Shown piece by piece: positions 32,401 to 54,676 of a DNA stretch of 64,000 nucleotides. Source of the DNA: Nitrospira sp. (GTDB lineage: Bacteria > Nitrospirota > Nitrospiria > Nitrospirales > Nitrospiraceae); assembly GCA_015709715.1 (NCBI GenBank), contig CP054184.1, forward strand, positions 3,333,001 to 3,397,000, given 5' to 3'. The first letter of the stretch is position 1, and each line of letters begins with the position of its first letter. The translations under genes were made by a program, and so were the position numbers. The notes below the pieces were generated by a model, which made no database searches, was not told where the DNA came from, and worked only from the letters and a program-made list of their open reading frames with translations.

Positions 32401-34299
32401 AGCGGACCGATCGCGGACATTCATACCAGTGAGCCGGTGGGCCATGGCGTGAACAACAGCTTCCGTGAGTTGATGGTGCAGGTGCATGACACCGTGCCCC
32501 ATACCGTCAACATCGTGACGGCGGGCAATCCTCCCGGGCAGCCGATCGAAGTGGCGCTCGAGGCAGGTAAGACCGTGTCCTTTGCCATGCCGGAGAAGAT
32601 CTACATGACGCCGATGCCGTTCCTGAACGGTGGTACCCACACCACGGGCAGCGGCTTGAACTTCAGGGCGGCGCCGATCGCTCAACGGTTGGCGACCAAT
32701 CCTGACGTGTCACAGGTCTTCAACAGCCAGATCCATGGCGACCCGTATACGCCGACGCTGCGTGCCTATGTCGGCGACACGATGGTGTTCCGTCTCTTGC
32801 ACACGCTCATGAACGAGTCGATGGTCTGGACGCTGTCCGGCCACACGTTCTGGACCGAGCGGTATGCCCCGGATGCCAATCGGAAGAACTCGATCCATAT
32901 CGGCATTGCGGAGCGTTATGACCTTGTGGTGCCCGAAGCGGGTGGCAGCCGGCACCTGGCCGGTGACTACATCCACTTCAACGGCCGGTCCTCGAAGTTT
33001 TCCGAGGGCGGCTGGGGCATCATCCGCGTGTACGACAAGGAGCAAGCAGATCTGAAGAAGCTGCCCGCGGGCTTCTCCAACAAGGGTGAAATGCCGAAGG
33101 CCTTGCCGGTGTGTCCTGGTGATGCTCCGGTGAAGCACTTCAACGTCGTCGCCATGGACTTCCCTGGTATGAAGTTCAACGCGAAGGCGCCGGATGAAAT
33201 CGAAGTGGACTTTGAGCGCAAGATTCTCACGAACAATCCCGAGGCCAAGATCTATGCCTTGGAGGAGGACACAGCGAAGGTGGCGAGCGGCGCACAGCCG
33301 ATGCCGTTGACGTTGCGTGTGAATGCCGGTGACTGCGTCAAGGTGCACTTGAAGAACAAGATGAAGGACAGCAAGGCGTCCTTCTCCGCGATCGGCCTGG
33401 CCTTCGATCCGAAGGATTCCATGGGCGCGAACGTGGGGAACAATCCCGGCGACCAGACCGTGGCGCCGGGCGGTGAGCGCGACTACACCTACTACGCGGA
33501 TCCCTTCAACGGCGAAACCACGTCGCTGGTGTGGGATTGGGGCAATGTCATGACCAATCCGCGGAACGGGTTGTTCGGCGCCATCGTGGTCGGTCCGAAG
33601 GGATCGAAGTACCGCGATCCGAAGACCGGAGCCGACCTGTCCACGAAGAATGCATGGGCGGCGGACGTGATCATCGACCGGTCCATTCCGGGCAATGAAA
33701 CGCGCGCCAACTACCGTGACGTGGCGTTGTTCTTCCAAGACGAAGACAACATCATCGGCACGAGCTTCATGCCGTACGTGCAGAACGTGGCGGGTCTGAC
33801 CGGCGTCAACTATCGGTCGGAGCCGTACAAGTACCGTGAAGAGCAGGGTTGCTCGCTCGGCAAGGTGTTCCAGCCTTGCAAGGCGGACAAGCCTGAGGAT
33901 CCTGCAACCCCGATTATCGAGGCGCATGCAGGCGATCCGGTGCGCATTCACGTACTGGGTGTGAGCAACGAGCAGAACGGCATGTTCAGCGTCGAGAAGC
34001 ACGAGTGGCCGATCGAGCCGTTCATGCGCGGCGCGGACCAGATCAGCGTGGTGGAGTACTCTGGTTCCGAGGTGTTGGATGCGTTCATCCCGTCCGCGGG
34101 TGGCATCTACCGTCTCCCGGGTGACTATGTGTACAGCAACCAGCGGTTGCCGTACTCGCAGTCCGGTCAGTGGGGCTATGTCCGTGTGTTGCCGTCCGGT
34201 GATACGCGGTTGCTGCCCTTGGCCGGTACCGGTGCCGGAACCAAGAGTGCTGCGGTCGAGCAGCCGACGGTGCAAGCGATTCCTGTCGCTGCGCAGTAA
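29434..34299 (+). CDS. Giant multidomain multicopper oxidase (1621 aa)
   Basis: Starts after AGGAGG, with a signal peptide (about 12-32, ending ASAES), so it is periplasmic. Copper motifs: LHIHG (His 239, 241), FHTF (His 287), FHSHHPHGG (445-450) and HCHVAHHYVAGM, giving type-1 Cys 522, His 527 and Met 532 between trinuclear His 521 and 523. A second set follows with THWHF (822, 824), WHDHAFG (953, 955) and WPHGGFG. The C-terminal third has cupredoxin-like sequence (about 1220-1600) without an obvious copper set. Six or more cupredoxin domains are likely, the size class of MnxG-type oxidases. The usual reaction is one-electron substrate oxidation with O2 reduction to water. The substrate (Mn, Fe, Cu(I) or organic) is unknown. 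It is monocistronic, closed by a terminator. Confidence 0.88.
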   Translation: MDCHWLTRVTSRALSVIAGGALVCLPLAASAESQPHAAHAAPQQTAMSHQLPSWAEQLKGQTIIEDAMGGKPERSAMVEQQHQRIMEHLSHDPQVQQVNTGMFNTQTMMHQYGAGGQDMLLMSDPRIEPVSLNGVGKCPATAPVKQYNVSAINVEITLNQWLDFYPGYMYTLDENLDQVRAEETKNRDAREKEGFDPGAVIPGVQAQWIQPLTIRGNQGDCVKIKLTNKLEGGEDVSLHIHGSSMVVSATGASATTTNPDSIVAKDKSGEFEWYIHPSTQEGVRQFHTFANDRELTVMGLFGSFVVEPRGSEYLEPLGTGDATPATSGWQVIIKNGTGPDFREFVLYYHEVGDEAFRPVNKKGDFLPQRDPLTDAYRPGGRAINYRSEPFGINNMHVQHEYFGFEDESMGYSSYTFGDPSPTIPRSYMGDPAKFRLVHGGSEVFHSHHPHGGTIRWPRSPRAIDDMNLWTTSANGPVKYPVIRAKTDRVDVEVIGPSEALDLETECGSGLCQQLAGDFLFHCHVAHHYVAGMWGYWRVYNTLQQGDLRNDVMPDLRELPDRKGRIKAPITSDKLVGQTVDWFGKSFKIVEKGKSDWKSNPATITIKDWVEMQLPTMGKPGHKNDEKGQIISYDATVLDWAWEGTRAMSEPESTIDNPKYKSTHPGKRHPITFEPLTGKVAWPHLTPHFGKRVMFAPNHVGAPWLEMIRRDANGEESVDQALPGENGNWSLCPANAGRKNYNVHFIKLPITIAKKTGKEPPVVDPNGLIFVLHEEEAEIRKNDDLKYPLVVRGNIYDCVDWTLTSEWDDDDYTNFQSSKINTHWHFLQFDNQASDGVITGFSYEQSVRPFTMLEKKNPKGLPVPMNTVFTAAAKKGATTITVKNAKQFHVGTLLLVGADNVKGNEISRIKAINGNTITLAKGLKHDHPVNDIVTVEFVRQRFWVDADVGTVFWHDHAFGATTWPHGGFGTFIAEPVGSTYHDPKTGKLVWSGPIADIHTSEPVGHGVNNSFRELMVQVHDTVPHTVNIVTAGNPPGQPIEVALEAGKTVSFAMPEKIYMTPMPFLNGGTHTTGSGLNFRAAPIAQRLATNPDVSQVFNSQIHGDPYTPTLRAYVGDTMVFRLLHTLMNESMVWTLSGHTFWTERYAPDANRKNSIHIGIAERYDLVVPEAGGSRHLAGDYIHFNGRSSKFSEGGWGIIRVYDKEQADLKKLPAGFSNKGEMPKALPVCPGDAPVKHFNVVAMDFPGMKFNAKAPDEIEVDFERKILTNNPEAKIYALEEDTAKVASGAQPMPLTLRVNAGDCVKVHLKNKMKDSKASFSAIGLAFDPKDSMGANVGNNPGDQTVAPGGERDYTYYADPFNGETTSLVWDWGNVMTNPRNGLFGAIVVGPKGSKYRDPKTGADLSTKNAWAADVIIDRSIPGNETRANYRDVALFFQDEDNIIGTSFMPYVQNVAGLTGVNYRSEPYKYREEQGCSLGKVFQPCKADKPEDPATPIIEAHAGDPVRIHVLGVSNEQNGMFSVEKHEWPIEPFMRGADQISVVEYSGSEVLDAFIPSAGGIYRLPGDYVYSNQRLPYSQSGQWGYVRVLPSGDTRLLPLAGTGAGTKSAAVEQPTVQAIPVAAQ

Positions 34300-39613: not shown

Positions 39614-40615
39614 GTGCCACGTGAATTGTCTCTCGCTGAAGTCTTCCAGCTTGGTTACTACTGGGAGACCAAAATCCTTCTCACTGCGGTGAAATTAGAC
39701 GTGTTTTCGGCTCTCGATGGCCGGGGTCGGACCGTCGACGAGGCAGCCGAAAAGTTAAACGCCAACCCTCGCGCCCTGGAACTGCTTCTCAACGCCCTGG
39801 TTGCGATCAGGCTCTTGCTCAAAACCGGTGAGGTCTATCAGAACACAGAGGTGGCTGCGGCGTATCTGGTGAAGCATGGGCCCCAATATATCGGGCATCT
39901 TCTGCTCCTTCACGATGCGGAATGGGGTAATTGGGGCAAGCTGGAGGAGGCGGTGAAGACCGGCCGCTCACCGGTGTCGCAGCACGTCTTCGAGACCGAT
40001 CCGGCCTTGGGGGCAAACGTGCTGTCGGTCTTGCATCGCATCGGGCAACAAAGTGGGCCTGATTTCGCTAAACGGCTGGCACTTGATCAAGCCGGGACCA
40101 TGCTGGACCTTGGAGGTGGGGCCGGGACCAACGCGATCGCCTTTTGCCGTGTGTATCCCACTCTGACGGCGACGGTGTTTGACCTGGCCACCACCTTGCC
40201 AGTGACCGAGCGAACCGTGAAGGAGGCCGGGCTGGAGGGCAGAATCACACTGAAGGCCGGAGATTTCAATCGAGACCCTCTGGGCGGACCCTATGATGTC
40301 GTGTTGATGTCGGACATCCTCCACTATCAGGACCTGGCGACCAATGCCGCCTTGGTGAAAAAAATCTACAGGCACCTCGCCCCTGGTGGACGGTTGATCA
40401 TAAAAGACCGATTTTTGGATGCTTCGGGCACCAGCCCGGCCTGGACCGCCGCGTTTGCCGTTCATATTTTGGTGAATACGGAGCGCGGCAGCTGTTATCG
40501 CACGGGGGAAGCCATGCAGTGGATGCATGACGCCGGATATGTCTCGGTGGAGGAACTGGAGCGGACGGCCGTGGTGCAGGGCATCAGGCCGAGCGGCGAG
40601 GCCCATCATGTTTGA
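39614..40615 (+). CDS. SAM-dependent O-methyltransferase (family 2, COMT type)
   Basis: 333 residues from GTG 39614. The N-terminal winged-helix dimerisation domain (about 1-100) is followed by the Rossmann domain: TMLDLGGGAGTNAIAF (SAM motif I, about 160-175), DVVLMSDILHYQDLATN and LAPGGRLIIKDRFLD. This is the plant-COMT-like or acetylserotonin-type family, which methylates a hydroxyl or thiol of a small molecule. It overlaps the next gene by 8 bases and opens a cluster of membrane and redox genes, so it could act on a quinone or another cofactor; that is only context. Confidence 0.88.
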   Translation: MPRELSLAEVFQLGYYWETKILLTAVKLDVFSALDGRGRTVDEAAEKLNANPRALELLLNALVAIRLLLKTGEVYQNTEVAAAYLVKHGPQYIGHLLLLHDAEWGNWGKLEEAVKTGRSPVSQHVFETDPALGANVLSVLHRIGQQSGPDFAKRLALDQAGTMLDLGGGAGTNAIAFCRVYPTLTATVFDLATTLPVTERTVKEAGLEGRITLKAGDFNRDPLGGPYDVVLMSDILHYQDLATNAALVKKIYRHLAPGGRLIIKDRFLDASGTSPAWTAAFAVHILVNTERGSCYRTGEAMQWMHDAGYVSVEELERTAVVQGIRPSGEAHHV

Positions 40616-41324
40616 ATTCCTGCGGCAGCCCGGTTTCTTCGGGACGCACGCCACGATAGGAGCGGACCTCAGCCAGCTGATGGCCACGCTCTTTACCGGC
40701 CTGTTCATCGTCGGATGGATTCAAGCTAAACAACATCGCGGGCATGGTCATCACTGGCTGATGCTGGGCGGCATGATCGCGATGGTGGGGTTTTTCACCG
40801 CGTATTACTTGTTTCGGCAACTCGGTGTCTTGGCCGTTGAAGGGAAGGAAGGATTCGGCGGATCCCAGGCCCTGTATGACTATGTGTTCATCCCCGTGCT
40901 GACGGTCCATATCATCCTCGTCATCATCGGGTTGGTGATGGCGGCGTATATGATCGTCTTGGGATTTCGGTCGCAACGCTTTCTGAACGGCGCGCGGGTA
41001 CTCAATGAAGCTTTGTTGCAGACCTCCTGGGGCAAGGTGGGCGCCATTTTCGGCGCCCTGACCGTGATCGTGCTGCTTCTGTTCGGCTCGCGCGTGATGT
41101 CGGCCGGGTTTTCCATGCGCAAGTTGGAAGTCTACCTGGGATTCCTGATTTTGGTTGCGCTGGTCCTTGCGGTGGAGATGGCGATCCAGCGCATTTGGCC
41201 TGACGGCGCGAAGCGCCATCGCGCCTTGGGGCGATTCACCATGGTCATCTACTGCATCCTCTTCCTGACCGGCACCTTTACTTACGCGATGTTGTACATC
41301 CTCTATCCTGGAAAAATCGGATAA
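40608..41324 (+). CDS. DUF420-type integral membrane protein
   Basis: 238 residues with about six hydrophobic helices. The conserved pattern of histidines near helices (TIGADLSQLMATL, QHRGHGHHWLMLG, VFIPVLTVHIILVI, KRHRALGRFTMVIYC) matches the DUF420 / CtaM-like family, which is linked to cytochrome oxidase assembly. The start ATG 40608 overlaps the methyltransferase end, so they are coupled. Its position a few genes before the bd-like oxidase agrees with an assembly role; the exact function is not shown by sequence. Confidence 0.82.
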   Translation: MFEFLRQPGFFGTHATIGADLSQLMATLFTGLFIVGWIQAKQHRGHGHHWLMLGGMIAMVGFFTAYYLFRQLGVLAVEGKEGFGGSQALYDYVFIPVLTVHIILVIIGLVMAAYMIVLGFRSQRFLNGARVLNEALLQTSWGKVGAIFGALTVIVLLLFGSRVMSAGFSMRKLEVYLGFLILVALVLAVEMAIQRIWPDGAKRHRALGRFTMVIYCILFLTGTFTYAMLYILYPGKIG

Positions 41325-41880: not shown

Positions 41881-42966
41881 ATGTTACATCGGTTAGCTTT
41901 ACGAGTCCTCCCGAGTTTGACCCTAGCCGTGACGGAGGATTCTGTTCGCACGAGAAAGCGTGTGGTGATGTTCGTACCGGGACTGGTGGCCTTTGCCGTC
42001 TACCGGGCCGCGAAGCACGTCACGTCACTGTCTGAGCCGTTGACCCTCCTCTTGCTGAGCGGACTCGTCTCGCTGGCGACCGCCATCTGCGCCTATCGCG
42101 TGGGGCGTACGGTGCCGTTCTCTCGGTTAATCGATGAAGACGGGGTTCCGCGGATCGTCTGGGTCTTGGCGTGGATCGGCTTCGTCTACGGGGTTCAGCT
42201 GTCACTCCTGGTGCTGGCCCTGCTCTGGCTGGTGGGATACGACTATGCCAAGCATCCTGACGGTCCCGCGATGATGGCGATCATTATTCCTTGTACGGCG
42301 GTTGCGCGCGACGCCTTCGAAATCGGCCATATCCGTTGGCTGGAACGAAGCGGACGTCCCTTCGCGACGTTCCCGGATGGTGTGGCCCTACGGGCGCTGC
42401 TGCGGCGGATTCCGCCGGCGATGATGCAATGGCTGGGGCTGGGCGTCGTCAGTTGCGTGGGGTTGTCCCTCGCTGTGATGCCTCTGGTGAACGGGGATTG
42501 GGCCGTGTTGGTGGAGGGAGCCCTTGTGACGTTGGTAGCGGGGACCGTCGCGCTGCCGGCGTTTCTTTCCGGTCAGGCCGGCGGAAGGGATTGGGTTCCT
42601 CAATTCACCAATATGGGCTGGGGCGAGTTGTTGAAGTTTTGGTGGTGGCCTGGGTTGGCCTTCGCCTCGACTTATTACCTGGTGTTGGTCGGCAGCTGCC
42701 TGTATGTATTGAAACAACCGGTGGCTTCTCCGTGGTTCTTCACGACGGCGGCGGCGGTCGTCGGCGCTGTGATGGCCTTGTATTGTTACTACTTGGGGGA
42801 TCGGCGTGACGTGGAAAACCGCGAGCGCGGCAGCGTGTCCGGCGCCCTCTTGCGATGTCCTTTCGTGATGGGAATTCTCGGAAAGTCCCGGGAGGCTCTT
42901 GTCGGTCCTCCGCTGAGTGAGCCCGCGGCCGCCTTTGAGAAACACAACCAGAGAGTGTCGTCATGA
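41881..42966 (+). CDS. Unknown multi-pass membrane protein before the bd-like oxidase
   Basis: 361 residues from ATG 41881, with eight or so hydrophobic segments. I recognise no family. A single His-rich loop (FEIGHIRWLERSG) and a Trp-rich stretch (LLKFWWWPGLAF) stand out. Its last four bases overlap the ATG of the bd-like oxidase (ATGA), so the two proteins are made together and probably interact. It may be an accessory or second subunit replacing CydB. Confidence 0.75.
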   Translation: MLHRLALRVLPSLTLAVTEDSVRTRKRVVMFVPGLVAFAVYRAAKHVTSLSEPLTLLLLSGLVSLATAICAYRVGRTVPFSRLIDEDGVPRIVWVLAWIGFVYGVQLSLLVLALLWLVGYDYAKHPDGPAMMAIIIPCTAVARDAFEIGHIRWLERSGRPFATFPDGVALRALLRRIPPAMMQWLGLGVVSCVGLSLAVMPLVNGDWAVLVEGALVTLVAGTVALPAFLSGQAGGRDWVPQFTNMGWGELLKFWWWPGLAFASTYYLVLVGSCLYVLKQPVASPWFFTTAAAVVGAVMALYCYYLGDRRDVENRERGSVSGALLRCPFVMGILGKSREALVGPPLSEPAAAFEKHNQRVSS

Positions 42967-44831
42967 TCAAGCGCCTTTGTTTACAGTCCGGGTTCGTGAC
43001 GTTGGTGTGTTGTGCGCTGCTCGCGATCGCCGGCTCGTTGTGGGGCTCTCATCTGCTGGAAAACGCCGAACGGTCCACGGACGTGTACTTTCATACGACG
43101 GGGATTGCCAGTGGGCCGTCCGCACCGACCGGCAACGAGAGCCACTATCCTCAATACGGCGCGCTCGATAGCCGCTTGTTGATGTGGCTCATCATTCAGC
43201 AGCACACCTATTTCGGAGGATTCGTCCTCGCGTTGCCGATCTTTTGCGTCTTGTTGGAATTTCTTGGATTGGTGGCGCGGAATCCTGCGATGGCCATGCG
43301 GTACGATGGTTTGGCGCAGGACCTCCTGAAAGTGGCGCTGCTCGCGATCTCCGTGACGGCCGTCGTCGGCAGCGTCATGCTGACCATGTTCATCGTGCTG
43401 TATCCCAGCTTCATGCAATACATGGGCGGCACGTTCAAGATCATGATGCCGATTTATGCCCTCGTTTTCGTCGGCACCACGTTTCTCACCATTGCCTACT
43501 ATTACAGCTGGGACCGGTTGGCTGGGCCTGATTCCAAGTGGGTCCACCTGTCCATGGGCCTGCTGGCCATCGTCTTCGGCACCTCCTTGCTGCTTCTGGC
43601 GAACGCCTGGTCGGCGTTCATGATGGCTCCGTCAGGGGTTGACGGTCAGGGGCGCTACTTGGGGAATCCATGGCATCTGCTGCGGTCAGCCTTGTGGAAT
43701 CCGCTGAACCTGCACCGGTTCCTTGCCGACATCATGTCGGGGGGCGCTGTGGTGTTGGCCTATGCCTGTTATCGGTTCTTCACCGGAAAGAGTCAGGAGG
43801 AGCGGGCGTATTACGATTGGGTCGGTTATGTCTTCCTCTTCGTCACGGTGTGTGCCCTGTTGCCGATGCCGTTTGCCGGCTACTGGTTGATGCGCTCGGT
43901 GTATGCCTATAGCCAAAGCATGGGCGTGACCATGATGGGCGGGTTGTTGACATGGCTCTTTGTCGTGCAAGCGCTCTTGATCGGCGCTCTCTTTCTGGGC
44001 GTCAACTATTATCTCTGGCAGAGTATGGGACGGATTCGCGGTGGGGAGCGATACCAAGCCTATTACCAGTATCTGTTGCTCGCCCTGTGCGGCTGTCTGT
44101 TCATCTGGCTGACGCCGCACACCATTCTGATGACCGGAACCGAAGTGAAGGCCATGGGCGGAGCGCAGCACCCTGTGATTGGAAACTATGGAGTGATGTC
44201 GTCGAAGAATGGCGCGGTGAATGTCATGATTTGTATCACCGCCTTGAGTTACATCTTCTACCGTCGTGCAAACCGCACCATGACAATCTCTTGGGCCAGG
44301 AGGGGGAATTTGGCGCTCGGGGTGCTGTTCGGTCTTGGGATGGCCCATATCATCGGGTTGTCGATCTATGGGTTTTACCTCCCGGCCAGTGTTCGAGTGG
44401 CGTTGTCGGGGCCTCAAGCGGTCACGACACTGGTGGTGGTGGCAGTGGGCTTGCTCCTGAATCGACGGATGCTGCAGGGCGCGACCGTTCATGGACCGGT
44501 GCAGTGGGGGCATATTTCGGTTCGTGGGATGGTGGGGTTGTTCGGATTGGCTGCGGCCTTTACGTGGGTGATGGGGCTGATGGGCTACATCCGGTCTTCC
44601 GGTCGCCTGGCGTGGCATGTAAACGAATTGATGCCCGATACGTCGCCCTGGGCGTTCACGCCTTCACTGGGGTTCGCTGCGAAGATGGTCACGATCAACA
44701 TGGTGATGTTTTGGGGAGCCGTATTCTTCCTGTTTTGGGTCTGCGAACGGGGGCAGCAACCGGTTTTGCATGAAGATCTCAGCGCAGAGCGGGAGGCGGG
44801 GTTTCTCCCTTCTCCCTCGCACGAAGCCTAG
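42963..44831 (+). CDS. Cytochrome bd-like membrane oxidase, copy 1 (622 aa)
   Basis: An integral membrane protein with about fourteen hydrophobic helices. It starts with a signal-anchor-like helix and a periplasmic segment (DVYFHTTGIASGPSAPTG), then helices with conserved His and Arg, for example QQHTYFGGFVLALPIF, NPLNLHRFLADIMSGG, PMPFAGYWLMRSVYAY and LMGYIRSSGRLAWHVNE. This is the cytochrome bd-like family found in Nitrospira, related to CydA helices but far longer and without a separate CydB. It may be a terminal oxidase or another electron-transfer membrane subunit; haem and copper sites are not proven by sequence. A paralogue is encoded at 48363-50276. Confidence 0.8.
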   Translation: MIKRLCLQSGFVTLVCCALLAIAGSLWGSHLLENAERSTDVYFHTTGIASGPSAPTGNESHYPQYGALDSRLLMWLIIQQHTYFGGFVLALPIFCVLLEFLGLVARNPAMAMRYDGLAQDLLKVALLAISVTAVVGSVMLTMFIVLYPSFMQYMGGTFKIMMPIYALVFVGTTFLTIAYYYSWDRLAGPDSKWVHLSMGLLAIVFGTSLLLLANAWSAFMMAPSGVDGQGRYLGNPWHLLRSALWNPLNLHRFLADIMSGGAVVLAYACYRFFTGKSQEERAYYDWVGYVFLFVTVCALLPMPFAGYWLMRSVYAYSQSMGVTMMGGLLTWLFVVQALLIGALFLGVNYYLWQSMGRIRGGERYQAYYQYLLLALCGCLFIWLTPHTILMTGTEVKAMGGAQHPVIGNYGVMSSKNGAVNVMICITALSYIFYRRANRTMTISWARRGNLALGVLFGLGMAHIIGLSIYGFYLPASVRVALSGPQAVTTLVVVAVGLLLNRRMLQGATVHGPVQWGHISVRGMVGLFGLAAAFTWVMGLMGYIRSSGRLAWHVNELMPDTSPWAFTPSLGFAAKMVTINMVMFWGAVFFLFWVCERGQQPVLHEDLSAEREAGFLPSPSHEA

Positions 44832-45970: not shown

Positions 45971-46885
45971 ATGGAAAATAGAGGTGTATTGATCGGGTCG
46001 ATCATCTTCGTGTTTGCCTCGTTCATCCTGATGATCGCGGGCTTGGTGTACGAGTCCTACAAGGCCAAACAGATGCGAGAGCTGGCATTGTCGATCAAGA
46101 CCGAGACCAAGGCCGTCGAGGTGGCGGCGGCCCAGGATTTTTCCATGTACAAGACGCTCGTTGGAGATGATGGGCGCGAGATGGTTCAGATCTCAGAGGG
46201 ACCGTTCGTGATGGGCAGCCGTGACAACGACAGCGACCCTGACGAAAAGCCGGAACACCAGGTGTATCTAAAGGCCTTCTTCATCGATAAGAAGGAAGTG
46301 ACGCAAGATGAGTACGATCGTTTCGCCAAGATGACGAAGCGGTTTAAACGAAAAATCGAGGTATTCGAGGACGATCCGGCCAAGCTCCTGAAACCTGAAA
46401 ATCCGATGATCGCTGTTACGTGGGACGATGCGGAGGCCTACTGCAAATGGGCCGGGAAGCGTTTGCCCACCGAGGCGGAATGGGAGAAGGCAGCGCGCGG
46501 AGAGGGGAAGCGTCGATATCCGTGGGGAGAGGAGTTTGCTGTCGGATCGGCGAATATTGACGGCAACGAAGATGGATTTCGTTATCTGGGGCCTCCTGGT
46601 TCATTCGAGTCTGGTCGTAGTCCGTACGGTGTCTATGACATGACTGGCAACGTTGCCGAATGGGTTGCCGATTTTTACGATGAAAATTATTATCGCAAGG
46701 CTCCCTACCGTGACCCGAAGGGGCCGGATCAGGGTGAGCAACGTGTCATTCGCGGCGGCTCATGGCGGGAAACGAAGCGGAATGTACGGACCTCCAAGCG
46801 CTTCCAAGCGAAACCGTGGCGACATGACATCACAGTCGGATTTCGCTGCGCGAAAGACATCGAGGTAGATAGGGCATCCAGATAA
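45971..46885 (+). CDS. Membrane-anchored SUMF1 / formylglycine-enzyme-fold protein, copy 1
   Basis: 304 residues. One N-terminal helix (about 8-29) anchors it, and a SUMF1 (FGE-sulfatase) domain fills about 60-300: GPFVMGSRDNDSDPDEKPEH, FFIDKKEVTQDEYDRF, AVTWDDAEAYCKWAGKRLPT, EAEWEKAARGE, GNVAEWVADFYD, VIRGGSWRE and VGFRCAKD. Genuine formylglycine-generating enzymes have a catalytic Cys in a YRCAAR-like segment before the final GFRC; here that segment reads NVRTSKRF, without Cys. It is therefore unlikely to make formylglycine and may be structural, as for other SUMF1-fold proteins near cytochromes. Confidence 0.85.
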   Translation: MENRGVLIGSIIFVFASFILMIAGLVYESYKAKQMRELALSIKTETKAVEVAAAQDFSMYKTLVGDDGREMVQISEGPFVMGSRDNDSDPDEKPEHQVYLKAFFIDKKEVTQDEYDRFAKMTKRFKRKIEVFEDDPAKLLKPENPMIAVTWDDAEAYCKWAGKRLPTEAEWEKAARGEGKRRYPWGEEFAVGSANIDGNEDGFRYLGPPGSFESGRSPYGVYDMTGNVAEWVADFYDENYYRKAPYRDPKGPDQGEQRVIRGGSWRETKRNVRTSKRFQAKPWRHDITVGFRCAKDIEVDRASR

Positions 46886-46896
46886 GACCCGGCGCC

Positions 46897-47808
46897 ATGC
46901 TTGAAACACGCTTCAAGGTCGTTTTTCTTTTGGTGGTGCTGCTCGCCGCCAGCATGCCGCTGGTGGGGATTCTCCAAGGGACTATTTCTACGCCATTTGA
47001 AGCACAGCCGAAGCATTCCCTTGATGATGTCGGCGACTCGTCCCCCGAACCGGCATCTTTGGAGGCGCCGTTGGCGGAAGAACTTGTGGCTATTCCGGCC
47101 GGTCCGTTCGTGCTTGGGACGAATCAGGGGGGATTTGATGAACGACCGGAACGGACGATCTATCTAGACGAGTTTCTCATCGATCGTTATGAAGTGACCA
47201 ATTCGCAATATGCAGCTTTTGTTGCGGCCACAGGTCATCGAAAAGCAGGCCCCCCTTCGCGCTATGCAAAAAATACGGGTCGAATGCGGGGGGTGAACCA
47301 GCCTGCCGTGTACGTATCCTGGGATGACGCCAAGGCCTACTGTGCCTGGAGTGGAAGGCGTTTACCTACTGAGGCCGAATGGGAAAAGGCCATGCGGGGC
47401 GAGGATGGCCGACTTTGGCCATGGGGAAATATTGAGATCCCTGACGGCGCAAATTGGGCTCGCGTAGATGATGGGTTTGGCGTGGCTGCCCCTGTGGGAC
47501 GAGTAAAAAGTGACGCCAGTCCCTATGGTGTCATGGATGGTGCAGGTAATGTGATGGAGTGGGTTGAGGATTGGTATTTGGAGACTGCTTACAAGGAGGC
47601 TCCGGATCGAAACCCCCCCGTCCCTGAATTCGGCATATATAAGGTGTTGCGGGGTGCCGCATATACGAGTTCGGGGTTGGATCTGCGCATCACAGCCCGC
47701 AGTAAAATGATGCCGGATTTTCGAGATGAAACCATCGGCTTTCGCTGTGCCCAATCGGTGAGTGGAAAAGGTAGGATTGAGTCCGAAGTTCTGCGCGGAA
47801 AATCATAG
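46897..47808 (+). CDS. Membrane-anchored SUMF1 / formylglycine-enzyme-fold protein, copy 2
   Basis: 303 residues, a relative of the previous protein: N-terminal helix (about 8-25), then GPFVLGTNQGGFDERPE, FLIDRYEVTNSQYAAF, YVSWDDAKAYCAWSGRRLPT, EAEWEKAMRGE, GNVMEWVEDWY, VLRGAAYTS and IGFRCAQS. The segment before GFRC (ITARSKMMPDFRDE) again lacks the catalytic Cys. It starts 11 bases after copy 1 and its end overlaps, tail to tail by 6 bases, a small minus-strand gene. Both copies precede the second bd-like oxidase cluster and may scaffold it on the periplasmic side. Confidence 0.83.
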   Translation: MLETRFKVVFLLVVLLAASMPLVGILQGTISTPFEAQPKHSLDDVGDSSPEPASLEAPLAEELVAIPAGPFVLGTNQGGFDERPERTIYLDEFLIDRYEVTNSQYAAFVAATGHRKAGPPSRYAKNTGRMRGVNQPAVYVSWDDAKAYCAWSGRRLPTEAEWEKAMRGEDGRLWPWGNIEIPDGANWARVDDGFGVAAPVGRVKSDASPYGVMDGAGNVMEWVEDWYLETAYKEAPDRNPPVPEFGIYKVLRGAAYTSSGLDLRITARSKMMPDFRDETIGFRCAQSVSGKGRIESEVLRGKS

Positions 47809-47907
47809 AAAATCAAAGTAGTAGAGGATCAGAAACACGGCCAAAATGATATTGACAACCATTCCGGCCAAAACTATAATGTCGAACACTTTTGAGTTTT
47901 TTGCCAT
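47803..47907 (-). CDS. 34-aa single-helix membrane protein
   Basis: Begins MAKNSKVFDIIVLAG and continues as one strongly hydrophobic helix ending in LILYYFDFL. AAGGGGA lies 6 bases before the ATG at 47907. It is antisense to the neighbouring genes, ends 6 bases inside the SUMF1-like gene and starts 101 bases from a divergent plus-strand mini-gene. Its look resembles small oxidase subunits such as CydX or CcoQ in type, not sequence. No family is recognised. Confidence 0.65.
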   Translation of the reverse strand: MAKNSKVFDIIVLAGMVVNIILAVFLILYYFDFL

Positions 47908-48008: not shown

Positions 48009-48125
48009 ATGGAAGCTGCTCAGGACGACGTCAAGATTAAGATTGGGAAAATGATTTTCTACATTACCTGTGCAGTGAGCACGTGGTTCTTCTATTGGTT
48101 CGGAGGGATTCAGTGCCCTTGTTGA
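48009..48125 (+). CDS. 38-aa single-helix membrane protein with CPC end
   Basis: Begins MEAAQDDVKIKIGKMIF, with a helix over about 14-33 (FYITCAVSTWFFYWF), then GGIQCPC and stop. GGGAGA precedes the ATG by 6 bases. It is the first of two mini-genes that lead into the second bd-like oxidase, so it is probably a small subunit of that complex. The terminal Cys-Pro-Cys could bind a metal or haem; this is a guess. Confidence 0.68.
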   Translation: MEAAQDDVKIKIGKMIFYITCAVSTWFFYWFGGIQCPC

Positions 48126-48175
48126 GCCCGCGTCCTCTGACTGTAAAACGCTTATCATCTTGAAGGGGGTTTGAG

Positions 48176-48298
48176 ATGGGGCAGACGATCGTATATTTCG
48201 TGGTATCGATACTGATTTGTGTTTCATTTTTTGCGGCCGTTGATCACTTCTTGATGGACGCCCAGGGACTGGATTTCTGGTATCTCCTGCGGAAGTAA
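48176..48298 (+). CDS. 40-aa single-helix membrane protein
   Basis: Begins MGQTIVYFVVSILICVSFF, continues AAVDHFLMDAQGLDF and ends WYLLRK: one N-terminal helix with an acidic, aromatic tail. AAGGGGG lies 7 bases before the ATG. It stands 50 bases after the previous mini-gene and 64 bases before the bd-like oxidase, on the same strand. A role as small oxidase subunit is likely from position only. Confidence 0.68.
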   Translation: MGQTIVYFVVSILICVSFFAAVDHFLMDAQGLDFWYLLRK

Positions 48299-48362
48299 TC
48301 GTCTGGATGTCAGGGGGTCTGAGTCTGTTTTTCACATACGAGATGTATCAAGGAGGTAACCC

Positions 48363-50276
48363 ATGGGCTCTGTAACCCGCACGAAGTTGATGTCGATCAT
48401 GGCGCTGGTCGCGATGATCGGCCTCCTCCTCATGCCTGTTTTGGTTGCGATCCCTGCCCTTGCTGCTGATGCACCAGCTGCTGATGCGAAAAAAGAGGGC
48501 GGCGATGCAAAGGTTGAGAAGGGGAGGGATGTTTACTACAAGACGGAGGGTATTGTATCTGGGCCACCCGCTCCCAAGACCACGGATGGAGAGAAGGATT
48601 ATCCAAGGTATAACTTTGAGAGTCGGGTTCTCCTTTGGTTCGCCAACCAGCAGCACCTGTATTACGGTAGCTTCGTTTTGGCGGTTCCGATTTTTTGTAT
48701 GATTATTGAGTTCATGGGGGTTGTGACTAAGGATAAGGCTCTGGCCAAGCGGTATGACCAGCTTGCCTACGACTTTATCAAGATCAGTCTGACTGCTTAT
48801 TCATTGACCGCTATTCTGGGCGGTATTCTGATCTTTACCTTCCTGACTCTCTATCCCGCGTTCTTCCAGTATCTTTCGGGTATTTTCCGTCCTGTCATGC
48901 ACATTTATGCCTTGATGTTCGTGGCGGAGAGCGGAACTCTCTATATCTATTACTACGGCTGGGACAAGATGAAGGAGGGATTCCTGAAGTGGATCCACCT
49001 CAGTATGTCCGTCATTTTGAACGTCATTGGGACGATTCTGATGTTCCTTGCGAACTCCTGGATCGGTTTCATGATGTCTCCTGCCGGTGTGGATGAGCAG
49101 GGGCGGTATCTGGGAAACATTTGGCATGTGATCCACACTGCTTTATGGAATCCCCTCAATCTGCATCGTATTCTCGGTAATATGGCTTTCGGCGGTGGTG
49201 TTGTGGCTGCCTACGCAGCCTATCGATTCCTTTCTGCTAAAACGGATGAGGAGCGAGCTCACTATGACTGGATGGGCTATATTGCGATGGCCCTGGGAGT
49301 GTCATTCTTGATTCCTCTGCCGTTTGCTGGGTACTGGTTGATGCGCGAGGTCTACGCCTATCGGCAGCAGATGGGTATTACTCTGATGGGTGGCTTGTTG
49401 GCATGGTTGTTCATTATCCAGGCCACGATGATCGGGATCTTGTTCCTTAGTACTAATTATTACCTTTGGCAGGCGCTTGGCCGTATGCGCGGTGCTGAAA
49501 AGTACCAGCGTTACATCAAGTATCTGGTATTTCTGCTGACTTGTGGATTCCTCGTGTTTATCACTCCTCATACCATGGTTATGACCCCGGCGGAATTGAA
49601 GGCTATGGGTGGTCAGCAACATCCTGTGCTCGGAAATTATGGCGTCATGTCCGCCAAGAACGGGGGCATTAACGTTATCATTACGACCACGGTTTTGAGC
49701 TTTGTCTGGTACATGCGCGGCAATAAGGTTTCGACAGTTTCTTGGTCTAAGTTCGGAAACATCTTCATGGGGTGTTTCTTCTTCTTCGCCTATTTCAACA
49801 TTATTATGCTGGCAGTGTATGGCTATTACATTCCTGCCAACGTGCGCGTGGGCCTCTCAGTTCCTCAGGTGGCCACGACGCTGTCGTGTCTCTTCTTCAT
49901 GTTTGCTCTCAACAGCGTCATGATGAAGGGGGCGAAGCAAATGGGTCCGATTGAATGGGGAAAGATATCGGCTCGATCGCAATATGCTCTTATCATGTTG
50001 GCGACAGCCTTTACCTGGATGATGGGTCTGATGGGATACATTAGGTCATCGGTGCGGCTGTTCTGGCACGTGAATGAGATTATGAGGGATAACTCGCCGT
50101 GGGCCTATACTCACACGGTAGGTTTCGCAGCGAACATGATTTCTGCGAATGTTCTCTTCTTCTGGATCAGCATTATGTTTGTCTTCTGGTTGGGTGCGCT
50201 TGCGGCGAAGAAGGCCCCGGTCGAAGCTAAGGCGCCAATTCCTGGACGTGCTCCAGAGCCGGCCGTAGGTCACTAA
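48363..50276 (+). CDS. Cytochrome bd-like membrane oxidase, copy 2 (637 aa)
   Basis: Starts after AAGGAGGT. Same plan as the 622-aa copy at 42963: N-terminal helix (about 9-35), a longer alanine/lysine-rich periplasmic segment (ADAKKEGGDAKVEKGRDV), then about fourteen helices with matching blocks, for example QQHLYYGSFVLAVPIF, NPLNLHRILGNMAFGG, PLPFAGYWLMREVYAY, and LMGYIRSSVRLFWHVNE. These shared His and Arg residues are candidates for haem binding and proton paths. Its codons are noticeably more AT-rich than those of genes to the left. It is followed by three cytochrome genes in one direction, so it is probably the membrane core of that complex and may reduce oxygen. Confidence 0.82.
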   Translation: MGSVTRTKLMSIMALVAMIGLLLMPVLVAIPALAADAPAADAKKEGGDAKVEKGRDVYYKTEGIVSGPPAPKTTDGEKDYPRYNFESRVLLWFANQQHLYYGSFVLAVPIFCMIIEFMGVVTKDKALAKRYDQLAYDFIKISLTAYSLTAILGGILIFTFLTLYPAFFQYLSGIFRPVMHIYALMFVAESGTLYIYYYGWDKMKEGFLKWIHLSMSVILNVIGTILMFLANSWIGFMMSPAGVDEQGRYLGNIWHVIHTALWNPLNLHRILGNMAFGGGVVAAYAAYRFLSAKTDEERAHYDWMGYIAMALGVSFLIPLPFAGYWLMREVYAYRQQMGITLMGGLLAWLFIIQATMIGILFLSTNYYLWQALGRMRGAEKYQRYIKYLVFLLTCGFLVFITPHTMVMTPAELKAMGGQQHPVLGNYGVMSAKNGGINVIITTTVLSFVWYMRGNKVSTVSWSKFGNIFMGCFFFFAYFNIIMLAVYGYYIPANVRVGLSVPQVATTLSCLFFMFALNSVMMKGAKQMGPIEWGKISARSQYALIMLATAFTWMMGLMGYIRSSVRLFWHVNEIMRDNSPWAYTHTVGFAANMISANVLFFWISIMFVFWLGALAAKKAPVEAKAPIPGRAPEPAVGH

Positions 50277-50371
50277 TTTTAAGGCGATTGAAACGAATCA
50301 AATGGGGGAAGTCGCCTGGGATGTTGCTTAGGGCGACCTTGGGGCTTCCCCCCATGCAGGAGGTTTGAGCT

Positions 50372-51688
50372 GTGATTGAACTCATAAAAGAGGCCTTAGC
50401 GATCGGCTGGCCTGCGCTCGGGATTCTCATCGCCTTATTGTTTTATTTCAAGGCGTCGATTAGTGACCCCGTGGCAAACAAGCGTGCGGTATTCAAGACA
50501 TTCATTGGTATTCTGGGCGCTATTCTGTTGTTTATGGCGATTGCTAATTACAAGATGAATTTCTTCGCCGAATCGAGGCTCTTGCCGGTGTCGCTGGTCT
50601 TGATCACCTCCATGACGTTCATGATGGCCCTTTATTTTACGAATATCAGCGCGTTGCTGAAAATCGGGGGCTTCATGTTCTTCATCGCGGCGGCGCTATC
50701 TGGTTACGGAAATTGGTTGCCTCAAGTTGAAGGTGGATTCCCGCCCATTGAGGAAAAGAAAGACTTTAGCAACATGCCACAGACTGAGCTTGCCGACGAA
50801 GGTGAGAAGATCATCTTCGGAGGAGTGGGGCAGAACAAGGTTCAGGGGGCAATTGGAAAGGGGCAGTGTCCGCTTTGCCATGCCTTTCACAAGGGAATGT
50901 TGGGAGAGCGTGCCCCGAACCTCGATGGGATTCCAGAGCGGGCCGAAACTCAGATTAATGATCCCCGTTATCACAAGGGGAACCCTGCTGCTCGAGATTC
51001 CAACCAGAAAGAGGCATTCCCTGGTTCTGGCACAGCCGAAAATGGAATCGAATATATTGCGGAGTCGCATGCCTGCCCTAGTTGCTTCGTCGTGGCAGGT
51101 TTTGGCGTGAAGGGTACGAACGATAAAGAAAGTCCGATGCCCTCAATCCATAAGCCGCCAATTTCATTGAGTCTTCCAGAGTTGGCCGCGGTCGATACGT
51201 GGCTCTACGTTCGTGAAGGGCGGGAGGCTCCATCTTTCGATGAGATCGTTAAGGCCTATGAAAAGTTTATCCCAGAATCCGAGCGCCCGAAGCCGCCCAC
51301 AGAGGGTGAGGCCAAAGGTGGTGGCGGTAGTGCACTAATGGCTGACGGAACAGAGCCCGTGGATCAGATTTTTGCCAAGGGTCAGTGCGTTGCTTGCCAC
51401 ACGATCCCTGGCATCCCTGGGGCGACCGGCACCATCGGTCCGAAGCTTGTTGAGGGAACAAACGCGCCGCTACGGATCAAAGACAAGGATTACAAGGGCA
51501 AGGCGAAGAACGTTCCGGACTATATTATGGAGTCCATCATTGAACCGAGCGCTTATGTCGTAAAGGGCTTTCCGGACAACACTATGCCGAAAGTGTTTGG
51601 TCAGAAGCTTAGTGCCGGAGCCTTGAAGAAGCTTGTAGACTACCTCTCGCAGGTGCAAGAGGGGAAGGAGCCGCCAAAGGCCTCGTAA
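50372..51688 (+). CDS. Membrane-bound dihaem c-type cytochrome (438 aa)
   Basis: Starts at GTG 50372 after AGGAGG. Four hydrophobic helices fill about the first 115 residues; the rest is periplasmic with haem motifs CPLCH (166-170) and CVACH (339-343). A third near-motif, CPSCF (around 230), lacks the His. After the second haem comes YIMESIIEPSAYVVKGFPDNTMP, typical of class-I cytochrome c with its axial Met. The joining of a quinone-type helical part to two cytochrome domains suggests electron entry from the membrane. It lies in series with the bd-like oxidase and two further cytochromes. Confidence 0.88.
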   Translation: MIELIKEALAIGWPALGILIALLFYFKASISDPVANKRAVFKTFIGILGAILLFMAIANYKMNFFAESRLLPVSLVLITSMTFMMALYFTNISALLKIGGFMFFIAAALSGYGNWLPQVEGGFPPIEEKKDFSNMPQTELADEGEKIIFGGVGQNKVQGAIGKGQCPLCHAFHKGMLGERAPNLDGIPERAETQINDPRYHKGNPAARDSNQKEAFPGSGTAENGIEYIAESHACPSCFVVAGFGVKGTNDKESPMPSIHKPPISLSLPELAAVDTWLYVREGREAPSFDEIVKAYEKFIPESERPKPPTEGEAKGGGGSALMADGTEPVDQIFAKGQCVACHTIPGIPGATGTIGPKLVEGTNAPLRIKDKDYKGKAKNVPDYIMESIIEPSAYVVKGFPDNTMPKVFGQKLSAGALKKLVDYLSQVQEGKEPPKAS

Positions 51689-51742
51689 GTTTAGCGGTGC
51701 AGTCCGGCTCTATTCTACTAAGGAACAAAGGGAGATGATGTA

Positions 51743-52780
51743 ATGAAAGCACTAATGTCAGTCGGAGCACTGATTGGTGTCGTCGGACTGCTCATGTTGA
51801 TCGGAATGATCTTCGGGGTGGTTCCCTCGAATACTGTCAGGTTAGTTGAGGGCTATATGCCCATGCAGATCCTGAGTGAGCTGGCGGTTTTTGTGGCTGG
51901 TTTCGCCGGACTGAGTTACTTGCTGAATTCGATGGGGTTTGCAATTCCACGGTTTTGGCAGGGAGTGCTCTTTTGGGTATTCATTCAGAGCTATTTGAAG
52001 TTCCGTGTATATCCGCCGATTCCTTTCAGTGTTCGGGCCATGTACGGTACGGTTTCGATGGTGGCGGTCTTCATGTGGGTTTCTGCCAACGAAGAAGACT
52101 GGAAAAAGTTTCGGCAGCCGATCATCAACGTGCTCGATGCCAATACGGGCTTTCACAAGGCCCTGCGGACTATGTATCTGATTCTGCTGCCCCTCTTGAT
52201 CGGCGGATTTTCCTTCCTCAGTATGAAGCCGAGTGTGGACGAGCCCATTGAGCTTCGGACCGTTCACCCAGCGCCTCCAGCCAGTACTAAGGTGCACGGA
52301 AAGACCTACACGCTTCAGACGTCGCAGAACCCGTTCCGGGTTAATCTCGAAGGTAAGTACGACCAGGAGTACAGCAACAAATTAATTGTTGAACAGGGTA
52401 TGGGCCGCCTAATGGCTCCCAACGCGAATCCCTGGGATGAAAAGGCTGAAGGCTATCTAAAGTATGTGCGCGAGGGCGGAGAAATTTTCTTCCAGAATTG
52501 TCACTTCTGCCACGGGGATAATTTAAACGGTCGTGGCCTCCATGCTTTTGCCTTTAATCCCATTCCTGCCAATTTCACAGACCCAGGCACCATTGCCCAG
52601 TTACAGGAGACGTTCATCTTCTGGCGCGTGGCTAAGGGTGGTATCGGTCTTCCAAATGAAGGCTTCCCTTGGGCATCGGTCATGCCGCCGTGGGAACAAC
52701 ATCTGACTACGGATGAAATCTGGAAGGTGATTCTGTTTGAGTACTGGCACACAGGTTATTATCCGCGAACCTGGGATTAA
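51743..52780 (+). CDS. Membrane-bound monohaem c-type cytochrome (345 aa)
   Basis: Five or six hydrophobic helices lie in the first 165 residues (for example VGALIGVVGLLMLIGMIFG and LSELAVFVAGFAGLSYLL). A periplasmic C-terminal domain with one haem motif, CHFCH at 253-257, follows, then VMPPWEQHLTTDEIWKVI, where the Met is the likely second haem ligand. The pattern is a cytochrome c class-I domain fused to a membrane part. It is 54 bases after the dihaem cytochrome and 46 bases before the NxrC-like gene, so all form one operon. Confidence 0.86.
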   Translation: MKALMSVGALIGVVGLLMLIGMIFGVVPSNTVRLVEGYMPMQILSELAVFVAGFAGLSYLLNSMGFAIPRFWQGVLFWVFIQSYLKFRVYPPIPFSVRAMYGTVSMVAVFMWVSANEEDWKKFRQPIINVLDANTGFHKALRTMYLILLPLLIGGFSFLSMKPSVDEPIELRTVHPAPPASTKVHGKTYTLQTSQNPFRVNLEGKYDQEYSNKLIVEQGMGRLMAPNANPWDEKAEGYLKYVREGGEIFFQNCHFCHGDNLNGRGLHAFAFNPIPANFTDPGTIAQLQETFIFWRVAKGGIGLPNEGFPWASVMPPWEQHLTTDEIWKVILFEYWHTGYYPRTWD

Positions 52781-52826
52781 TGCATATATTTCAAACAACC
52801 TGGGAGAACAGGTGGTGAGGTTAATA

Positions 52827-54611
52827 ATGAGCAAACTGCGTTCGAAAGCAAAGCCCAAGTTGATGGCTGGGGCCTCGCTAAGTGCCATTCTCTTTATGGG
52901 CGGTTTTGTGTCGGTTGGGCATGCCGGAGATATGCCGGAAGGCTTCCAGAAGGGTGAGTTGGCCCCAGCACCTCCAGCCGACATGATTGAAGCTGGTAAG
53001 CGGGTCTATTTCACCAAGTGCGTGTGGTGTCATGGGGTCGATGGTGCAGGCGATGGCCCAGGTGCCGATCGTCTATGGCCACGCCCTCGGAATTTCAACC
53101 AAGGTACGTTTAAAATTCGGCATACGGCGAGCGGAGAACTTCCGCTTTTCAATTACAACGAAAAAATGCCGGATTCGAATAAGAACGACTTGTTGGACAC
53201 AGTCACTCACGGTTTGCCTGGCTCAGCAATGCCACCGTGGGAAGGCATCCTGACGGAGGAGCAGCGTATCCAGGTTCTCGCTTTCGTGACCACTCAGCTT
53301 GTCAAGGATCGAAAATTTACCGACAAGGCTTCGGAAACCCAAACGATTCTTCAAATGGCTACTCTCAAGCCTGCGGAGCCGACTGAGGAAAGTCTCAAGA
53401 AGGGTGCTGAGCTAATTGTTGAAAAGAAGTGTATCGAGTGTCATGGTGTCGAAGGGCGAGGAGACGGTAACGCGTTTAACCTCAAGGATGACTGGGGTTT
53501 TTCCATCCAACCGGCCGACTGGCACAAATGTTGGAACTTCCGGGGGAGCCGTCAGGATCCTTACAATGTGCGTAATATTTTCCGCACGTTCTCAACAGGA
53601 GTGAACGGAACTCCCATGCCGTCTTTTGCGGATAGCACTTCCATTGAAGAGCGGTGGAACATTGCTAACTTCGTGAATTCATTGTGTGAACGTGATGACG
53701 AAGGGAAGCCATTGGGCATCGATCCTCTGACAGATAAGCCCAAAATCAACTTTGTGATTCCTTCTTCCCCGGTTGAAGGGGAAATTTCGGACGATCCTGA
53801 GAATGAGATGTGGAAGAAGCAGGGGCGCCGTTATGTGGCAATGGGTGGTCAAATCACCCATAAGCCTCGTAACTTCGTCAACCGCATTGACGATCTTTGG
53901 GTGAAGTCTCTGTACAACGACAAAAACGTCGTGTACCTGATTCAGTGGGACGATCGTACGAAGAGCGTGGCGGAAGGGAAGCTTCCATGGGCTCCCACCC
54001 AGGTCAATGTTGAAAACTTTGGAGTAAAGGAGCAAGCTCCGAAGACGGGTGAGGAAGGTTCGATCGCCGCGGCACAGAACAACTACACCGTCTACAATGA
54101 CGCTCTCGCATTTCAATTCCCGATCAAATGGCAGGAGATTCCAGCACCATTCAAGCCTCGCTACTTGTTCGGCGATGCAAAGTTTAATGCCGATATCTTG
54201 AAGTGGGAAGCGGATGGCTCGCTGCGTTCCTTTAAGGGGACTGGGTGGGATCAGGACTTTGAAGAGCGTGATGACTTCGAAGAAAAAGTCAAGTTGATGA
54301 AAGCAGAGTGGAAGAATGGCCGTTGGAGCGTAATGATCTCCCGCCCGCTGAAGGGTGATAAGGATGATTATGATGAATACACTCGCTTCGACGTCGGCAA
54401 GTACATTCCGATGGTCTTCTTCGCGTGGGATGGCCATAACGGAGACGCCGGACGGAAGATGGCGGTATCTGCGTTCTATTATACGATTCTTGAGCCACCG
54501 ATCCCGCAGGAAGTCTACATCTACCCGGCAATTATCGCTGTGGGTGTAGTGATTCTTGAAGGTTGGATGCTCACTCGGCGTGCAAACAAGAAGAAGGGTA
54601 AGACTCTGTAA
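52827..54611 (+). CDS. Dihaem cytochrome c with ethylbenzene-dehydrogenase-gamma-like haem domain (NxrC-like)
   Basis: 594 residues from ATG 52827 with GAGG 7 bases before; the upstream frame adds residues overlapping the previous gene. Signal segment about 12-33 (ending GHAGD), two cytochrome c domains with CVWCH (65-69) and CIECH (202-206), each with a later AMPPW/TPMPSF Met region, then an EBDH-gamma-like domain (about 330-555: GGQITHKPRNFVNRIDDLWV, YLIQWDDRTKS, PLKGDKDDYDEYTRFDVGKY) that binds haem b in DMSO-reductase-family complexes. A C-terminal helix lies at about 560-582. This layout matches candidate gamma subunits of nitrite oxidoreductase in Nitrospira. Here no alpha or beta subunit is adjacent; it sits with the bd-like oxidase. 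Confidence 0.83.
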   Translation: MSKLRSKAKPKLMAGASLSAILFMGGFVSVGHAGDMPEGFQKGELAPAPPADMIEAGKRVYFTKCVWCHGVDGAGDGPGADRLWPRPRNFNQGTFKIRHTASGELPLFNYNEKMPDSNKNDLLDTVTHGLPGSAMPPWEGILTEEQRIQVLAFVTTQLVKDRKFTDKASETQTILQMATLKPAEPTEESLKKGAELIVEKKCIECHGVEGRGDGNAFNLKDDWGFSIQPADWHKCWNFRGSRQDPYNVRNIFRTFSTGVNGTPMPSFADSTSIEERWNIANFVNSLCERDDEGKPLGIDPLTDKPKINFVIPSSPVEGEISDDPENEMWKKQGRRYVAMGGQITHKPRNFVNRIDDLWVKSLYNDKNVVYLIQWDDRTKSVAEGKLPWAPTQVNVENFGVKEQAPKTGEEGSIAAAQNNYTVYNDALAFQFPIKWQEIPAPFKPRYLFGDAKFNADILKWEADGSLRSFKGTGWDQDFEERDDFEEKVKLMKAEWKNGRWSVMISRPLKGDKDDYDEYTRFDVGKYIPMVFFAWDGHNGDAGRKMAVSAFYYTILEPPIPQEVYIYPAIIAVGVVILEGWMLTRRANKKKGKTL

Positions 54612-54639
54612 TTGCTAGCCCACAGACTCAGTGGTCTGA

Positions 54640-54676
54640 CGAGGGGGTGAGGAAACTCACCCCCTCGTGTTTTTTG
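54640..54676 (+). terminator. Rho-independent terminator of the cytochrome operon
   Basis: CGAGGGGGTGAG (54640-54651) and CTCACCCCCTCG (54656-54667) form a perfect 12-bp stem with a GAAA tetraloop, followed by TGTTTTTT. Confidence 0.95.

Follow-up and report, generated by a model that had tools for sequence, protein, structure and literature searches.

Results

An operon for a bd-like protein and a divergent microprotein gene

The window, a 64,000-nucleotide stretch of a Nitrospira sp. genome (GCA_015709715.1, contig CP054184.1, positions 3,333,001 to 3,397,000), carries an operon encoding a cytochrome bd-like protein (bd3), two membrane-anchored cytochromes c (cyt438 and cyt345) and a protein resembling the gamma subunit of nitrite oxidoreductase (NXR), which we call altC, together with two of three single-helix microproteins (Table 1). 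The host genome is one contig of 4.16 Mb, in which nxrA and nxrB are each present in two copies. The operon runs on the forward strand in the order mini1, mini2, bd3, cyt438, cyt345, altC, followed by the terminator, with intergenic gaps of 46–95 bp and a clear Shine–Dalgarno sequence ahead of most genes. The original prediction, made from the sequence of this locus, had proposed six genes on one strand ending in one terminator, and the coordinates and the 13-bp stem with its T-tract confirm this. Both of the tiny subunits that it counted are conserved, but there are three microproteins rather than two; mini3 had been overlooked, as had the promoter within it and the second bd-like gene, bd4. 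The altC start is most likely the ATG at 52827, which gives 594 aa; the longest open reading frame, from a TTG at 52737, would overlap cyt345. No cydB partner was found, there being no further gene from the microproteins to the terminator.

Table 1. Features of the bd-like locus (positions in the window) and bd3 copies beside nxrA in other genomes (survey labels of loci and genomes)
Feature	Position	Strand	Description
mini3	47803..47907	-	34-aa single-helix microprotein MAKNSKVFDIIVLAGMVVNIILAVFLILYYFDFL; divergent to the operon, 100 bp upstream of mini1
Sigma-70 type promoter	47852..47880	+	TTGACA-N17-TATAAT, 12/12 match; antisense within mini3, ~129 bp upstream of mini1
mini1	48009..48125	+	38-aa single-helix microprotein; motif WFFYWF(A/G); CPC tail in most Nitrospirales
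mini2	48176..48298	+	40-aa single-helix microprotein; motif LMx(M/A/V)QGLD(Y/F)(F/W)Y
bd3	48363..50276	+	bd-like core, 637 aa; predicted CydA fold, residues 81-618; published name bd-like_3
cyt438	50372..51688	+	membrane-anchored dihaem cytochrome c (CPLCH, CVACH); both sites His/Met; conserved CPxC(F/Y)
cyt345	51743..52780	+	membrane-anchored monohaem cytochrome c (CHFCH), His/Met
altC	52827..54611	+	dihaem c, EB_dh (dimethyl sulfoxide reductase gamma-like) domain and C-terminal helix; published name alt_NxrC_2
Intrinsic terminator	54639..54668	+	13-bp stem, then T-tract
bd4	42963..44831	+	bd3 paralogue, ~54% identity; published name bd-like_4; neighbour, dispensable to the module
FGE-sulfatase domain protein 1	45971..46885	+	recurrent neighbour
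FGE-sulfatase domain protein 2	46897..47808	+	recurrent neighbour
DUF420 (CtaM-family) protein	40527..41324	+	Nitrospinota orthologue directly adjoins the microprotein trio
Second bd3 copy beside nxrA	L092 (G097:C1:2315000-2331000), L151, G043, G053, G030, G078, G096, G058, G348, G104, G049		

Three conserved microproteins

In an order-level survey of 117 genomes from 24 genera and 4 families, mini1 was matched in about 109 genomes, mini2 in 105 and mini3 in 107, nearly always adjoining a bd-like gene; mini3 was single copy in nearly all. Many of the genomes without matches had contig ends at the locus or had lost bd3 itself. The ratio of non-synonymous to synonymous differences (pN/pS), taken over 108–124 loci, was 0.14 for mini1, 0.32 for mini2 and 0.17 for mini3, for which the pairwise median was 0.076. 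Conservation and pN/pS together rule out chance reading frames. By these sequence measures mini1 and mini2 are real genes, kept across Nitrospirota under purifying selection, and mini3 is the best conserved of the three.

The usual layout is a divergent mini3 followed by mini1, mini2 and bd3 (125 loci), and in nearly all Nitrospirota loci on intact contigs mini1 and mini2 immediately precede bd3 on its strand. In other classes mini3 can stand on the operon strand, upstream in three loci and downstream of altC in one. All seven Nitrospinota genomes have the trio in the same divergent layout, as a three-gene unit of its own beside a DUF420 (CtaM-family) gene; there, no microprotein was found within 9 kb of the bd3 operon, the trio being located elsewhere in the genome. 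That the trio stays together in both phyla, and in either setting, implies that its members have a function in common.

Small single-helix subunits of the CydX or CydH type occur in bd oxidases. Pfam gave no credible match for any of the microproteins, although sequences this short make it a weak test of CydX homology, and among viral contigs there was one pattern match and no relative. The CPC tail of mini1 was considered as a universal metal-binding tail and rejected: other families have His-containing tails, and Nitrospinota have FASVWR. Two further observations concern mini1. Extra mini1-like reading frames with an IQCPC ending occur away from bd3 copies (L089:4677-4922 and L090:3960-4169), and part of some ~330-aa proteins in family f3 (G019:C2:1319588 and others) is weakly similar to mini1 (E 0.06–1), which may be chance.

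A consensus promoter sequence within mini3

Scanning 12.6 kb for sigma-70 promoters gave a single 12/12 match, the one antisense within mini3. When loci were aligned on mini3, 109 of 126 had the full 12/12 match; at least 11/12 was found in 111 of 131, with a spacer of 17 nt in all. At the promoter site 78 of 87 cases use ATA, a rare Ile codon that accounts for just 3 of 186 Ile codons in genes close by. When mini3 was resampled synonymously, 10 of 20,000 trials gave a 12/12 match. Its absence from family f4, from genomes outside the order and from Nitrospinota marks the promoter as a feature of Nitrospirales. The promoter alone cannot be the cause of mini3 conservation, since the protein is conserved where the promoter is missing or the gene has moved. 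These patterns suggest a conserved element that is used as the operon promoter, and the high transcription described for the Nitrospira moscoviensis cluster in the account of PMC6606698 fits a consensus promoter.

The bd3 core

bd3 matched the Pfam family Cyt_bd_oxida_I (E 1.5e-14). Its AlphaFold model (predicted local distance difference test 77, predicted TM-score 0.76) aligned with 7ose_A over 352 residues at 3.8 Å (Z 24.4), so that bd3, as modelled, has the CydA fold; ActC/PsrC-like matches of the model (Z 12–15) were taken as shared helical architecture only. H98, E189, H212, H268, H403, H420 and H569 are invariant in 45 of 45 relatives. H98, H268 and E189 align with H19, H186 and E107 of Escherichia coli CydA, and R495 (43 of 45 relatives) aligns with R391. 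We take H19, H186, M393 and E445 to be the haem ligands of E. coli CydA, the alignment row of which is backed by the canonical CydA of the host genome. In this alignment the M393 column is G497 in bd3, leaving that ligand without a counterpart, and the bd3 helix 537–564, which corresponds to the E445-bearing helix, holds no Glu.

The bd3 family has also been reported from anaerobic anammox bacteria in PMC3578206; statements here on anammox bacteria rest on papers and not on genome comparison. With these ligands lacking counterparts and the family reported from anaerobes, the original prediction of an oxidase core is not supported as it was put, and bd3 is only a candidate O2 reductase.

Two genomes (G218 and G313; loci L074 and L072) hold the full module, with no haem-copper oxidase, other bd-like gene or NxrA match detected. 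As these keep the module with a single bd-like gene, bd4 is unsupported as an obligate, CydAA'-like partner. A tandem pair of bd-like genes was seen in one cluster elsewhere (L088, G211:C5, 4555-10762), which reads cyt438-like, bd-like, bd-like, cyt345-like.

The cytochromes and altC

All five c-haem sites of the operon keep CxxCH and an invariant Met (M256 and M405 in cyt438, M314 in cyt345, M135 and M264 in altC). The N-terminal membrane parts of cyt438 and cyt345 look like plain anchors, because they contain no invariant His. cyt438 gave a profile match (E 2.5e-19) to Kustd1711 of Kuenenia (7zs0), which is encoded within the nxr cluster of anammox bacteria and whose haems were measured at about +350 mV (PMC11791136). 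Residues 235–239 of cyt438 (window 51074-51088) form a CPxC(F/Y) motif, a Cys pair without a haem His, that is conserved in 27 of 30 sequences.

The gamma-like character of altC, as originally called, holds for the presence of a TIGR03477-like domain and is weakened by its score, 56.2 bits against a curated cut-off of 169.85, and by a lost haem ligand. Where NXR-C has its Lys ligand, altC has K544 (K in 23 and R in 3 of 26 sequences); where NXR-C has its Met ligand, it has Phe at residue 448 (window 54168-54170), making haem b in the host altC doubtful. This position is F, W or H in Nitrospiria and Met in four rows of other classes. A profile search of the PDB with altC matched 7b04_C and 2ivf_C, and a single-sequence PDB search with the gamma part alone gave no match.

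Spread of the module and its link to NXR

The gene order bd3-cyt438-cyt345-altC recurs in several Nitrospirota classes as well as in Nitrospinota: the four large genes are conserved together, and in Nitrospirota so are mini1 and mini2, which lie beside bd3 as described above. The four genes form a cluster on one strand in N. moscoviensis (L119), which the host cluster closely resembles, and in Nitrospinota (L169, L171-L173, L175, L176).

A second bd3 copy occurs in 15 Nitrospirales genomes. In 10 of them this copy (~76–84% identity) immediately precedes nxrA and is read in the same direction (Table 1), with a gap of ~380–450 bp where measured; at L092 the order is bd3', nxrA, nxrB. It does not adjoin nxrA in G289, G293, G310, G021 and G108. 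At L177 and L178, from other Nitrospirota classes, a bd-like gene, a cyt345-like gene and genes for NxrA (~40%), NxrB (~44%) and a gamma subunit stand on one strand. In the host genome the two nxrAB copies lie downstream of the operon, at distances of ~40 and ~66 kb, so that altC is, as had been claimed, not beside a catalytic alpha/beta pair.

No NxrA match was found in fifteen genomes of families f4–f13 that hold the module or bd3. In 'Candidatus Manganitrophaceae' (Nitrospirota), nitrification genes are reported to be absent and bd-like terminal-oxidase complexes to be present (PMC9040806). The proposed link to nitrite oxidation is thus partly upheld by the bd-like copies beside nxrA, in ten Nitrospirales and two other-class genomes, but it does not extend to every module. 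Judged from gene content, the link is real and not exclusive, and the module is not dedicated to NXR, because complete modules occur without detectable NxrA.

Neighbouring genes

In most Nitrospirota loci the module has two FGE-sulfatase-domain genes close by, which can even lie between mini3 and mini1; they possibly encode maturation factors. Elsewhere in the window, a gene at 29434-34299 encodes a protein of 1621 aa with multicopper-oxidase domains, and after it come genes for carboxypeptidase-regulatory-domain proteins and for one with HEAT repeats. A haem-copper oxidase subunit I match within a 944-aa open frame (G000:C1:2283014-2284264, reverse strand) recalls the fused cbb3 oxidase of Nitrospina.

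Discussion

As far as sequence can tell, the locus encodes a core with the CydA fold, three single-helix microproteins under purifying selection and three periplasmic cytochrome c modules that together hold five haems with His/Met ligation. We favour, with a probability of about 45%, the reading that these proteins make up a high-potential electron-transfer complex between cytochrome c and quinone, which partners NXR and has the microproteins as accessory subunits. A constitutive promoter would drive an operon for one membrane-bound respiratory complex. Periplasmic high-potential donors, NXR where it is present and others elsewhere, would pass electrons to a chain of altC, cyt345 and cyt438, which would exchange them with b haems in bd3. 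bd3 would in turn connect the chain to the quinone pool, where the proton gradient could drive uphill reduction of quinone and so provide electrons for CO2 fixation; the microproteins may serve as CydX-like accessory or assembly subunits. A connection of bd3 to the quinone pool seems likelier than one to O2 because bd3 has an incomplete set of the canonical O2-site features and anaerobes, too, are reported to have the family, beside NXR.

Several observations weigh against this reading. The canonical quinol-binding residues of bd oxidases are described as absent from the bd3 family in PMC3578206, and any quinone site would therefore have to be new. Loss of E445 is weak evidence, as the canonical CydA of the host genome itself has Thr there. 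The linkage of bd3 to the trio is absent in Nitrospinota. Finally, the organisms of G218 and G313 either live anaerobically or employ bd3 as an oxidase; if they respire O2, the bd3 complex would have to reduce it. Were bd3 in general, as originally proposed, a cytochrome c oxidase that reduces O2 with nitrite electrons received through the cytochromes, these two genomes would be explained, and the CydA fold, the invariance of H98, H268 and E189 and the growth on nitrite of Nitrospinae without haem-copper oxidases, as given in PMC8026999, would be expected. We consider this doubtful, given the lack of a conserved M393, a helix 537–564 free of Glu and the reported conservation of the cluster in anaerobic anammox bacteria (PMC3578206); moreover, Nitrospira has separate proteins, OR-N1 and OR-N2, that are thought to form a CydAA' oxidase (PMC12342949). 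A membrane docking hub, in which bd3 is mainly a scaffold and the assembly anchors NXR and hands electrons on to a separate oxidase, would account for the gamma-like altC and for the bd3 copies that adjoin nxrA, and an anchor role is among the proposals of PMC6606698. It is nevertheless improbable: genomes in which no NxrA is detectable retain the full module, and the putative haem-binding His residues of bd3, needless in a mere scaffold, are invariant.

The microproteins raise a separate question, since they could form an independent unit, for example of assembly or copper/haem-insertion factors, that merely shares the locus in Nitrospirota. Their place in Nitrospinota beside DUF420 rather than bd3 points that way, CtaM being an oxidase-assembly family (DUF420; PMC4958251). 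The position of mini1 and mini2 directly upstream of bd3 in nearly all intact Nitrospirota loci, within an operon that has one promoter and one terminator, makes such independence rather unlikely. We tentatively prefer to see in the trio an ancient and unrecognised set of small subunits of cytochrome c-linked bd-like complexes in Nitrospirota and Nitrospinota, one gene of which houses the Nitrospirales operon promoter on its other strand.

The path that electrons take in Nitrospira and Nitrospina from nitrite towards O2 and the quinone pool is an old question in nitrogen-cycle research, and Nitrospirales lack genetic tools. The present analysis names what are probably all the components of one candidate complex, among them three peptides of a kind easily missed by routine annotation and proteomics. 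It also shows that the core of the complex has genomic ties to nxrAB and, equally, that it is used without NXR.

Comparison with known systems

The complex had been predicted as undescribed. However, the cluster of bd-like_3, two cytochromes c and alt_NxrC_2 is already on record for Nitrospira, Nitrospina and anammox bacteria, as are its bd-like_4 duplicate, its strong transcription, proposed roles in NXR anchoring, terminal oxidation and reverse electron flow, and links from NXR to an oxidase or the quinone pool (PMC3578206, PMC6606698 and PMC8026999, in their accounts of the cluster). These accounts, supplementary tables apart, make no mention of the microproteins, the mini3 promoter or the bd3 copies upstream of nxrA, all of which are likely to be new to the literature.

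The host locus has the same four large genes as N. moscoviensis L119, in the same order (identities of 92% for bd3, 77% for cyt438, 88% for cyt345 and 78% for altC), with bd4 a few genes away. bd3 shares with canonical CydA the fold (Z 24) and the residues aligned to H19, E107, H186 and R391; it differs in having extra helices in place of the Q-loop and in the loss of M393 and the glutamates of the E445 helix, and its operon differs from that of a canonical bd oxidase in lacking cydB and in co-encoding cytochromes c. altC resembles NxrC and the gamma subunit of ethylbenzene dehydrogenase in its EB_dh/TIGR03477-like domain and in the Lys haem ligand near K544, but it falls below the family cut-off, has F448 for the Met ligand and carries in addition two c-type haems as well as a helix at the C terminus. 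cyt438 differs from Kustd1711, a protein with a signal peptide, in its N-terminal membrane helices and the conserved CPxC(F/Y). Like CydX and CydH, the microproteins have a single helix and fewer than 50 aa, and their genes accompany that of a bd-type core. The Pfam comparison, a weak one for such short sequences, revealed no sequence relation, and the microproteins differ in that they number three, with one gene divergent, and persist as a trio away from the core in Nitrospinota.

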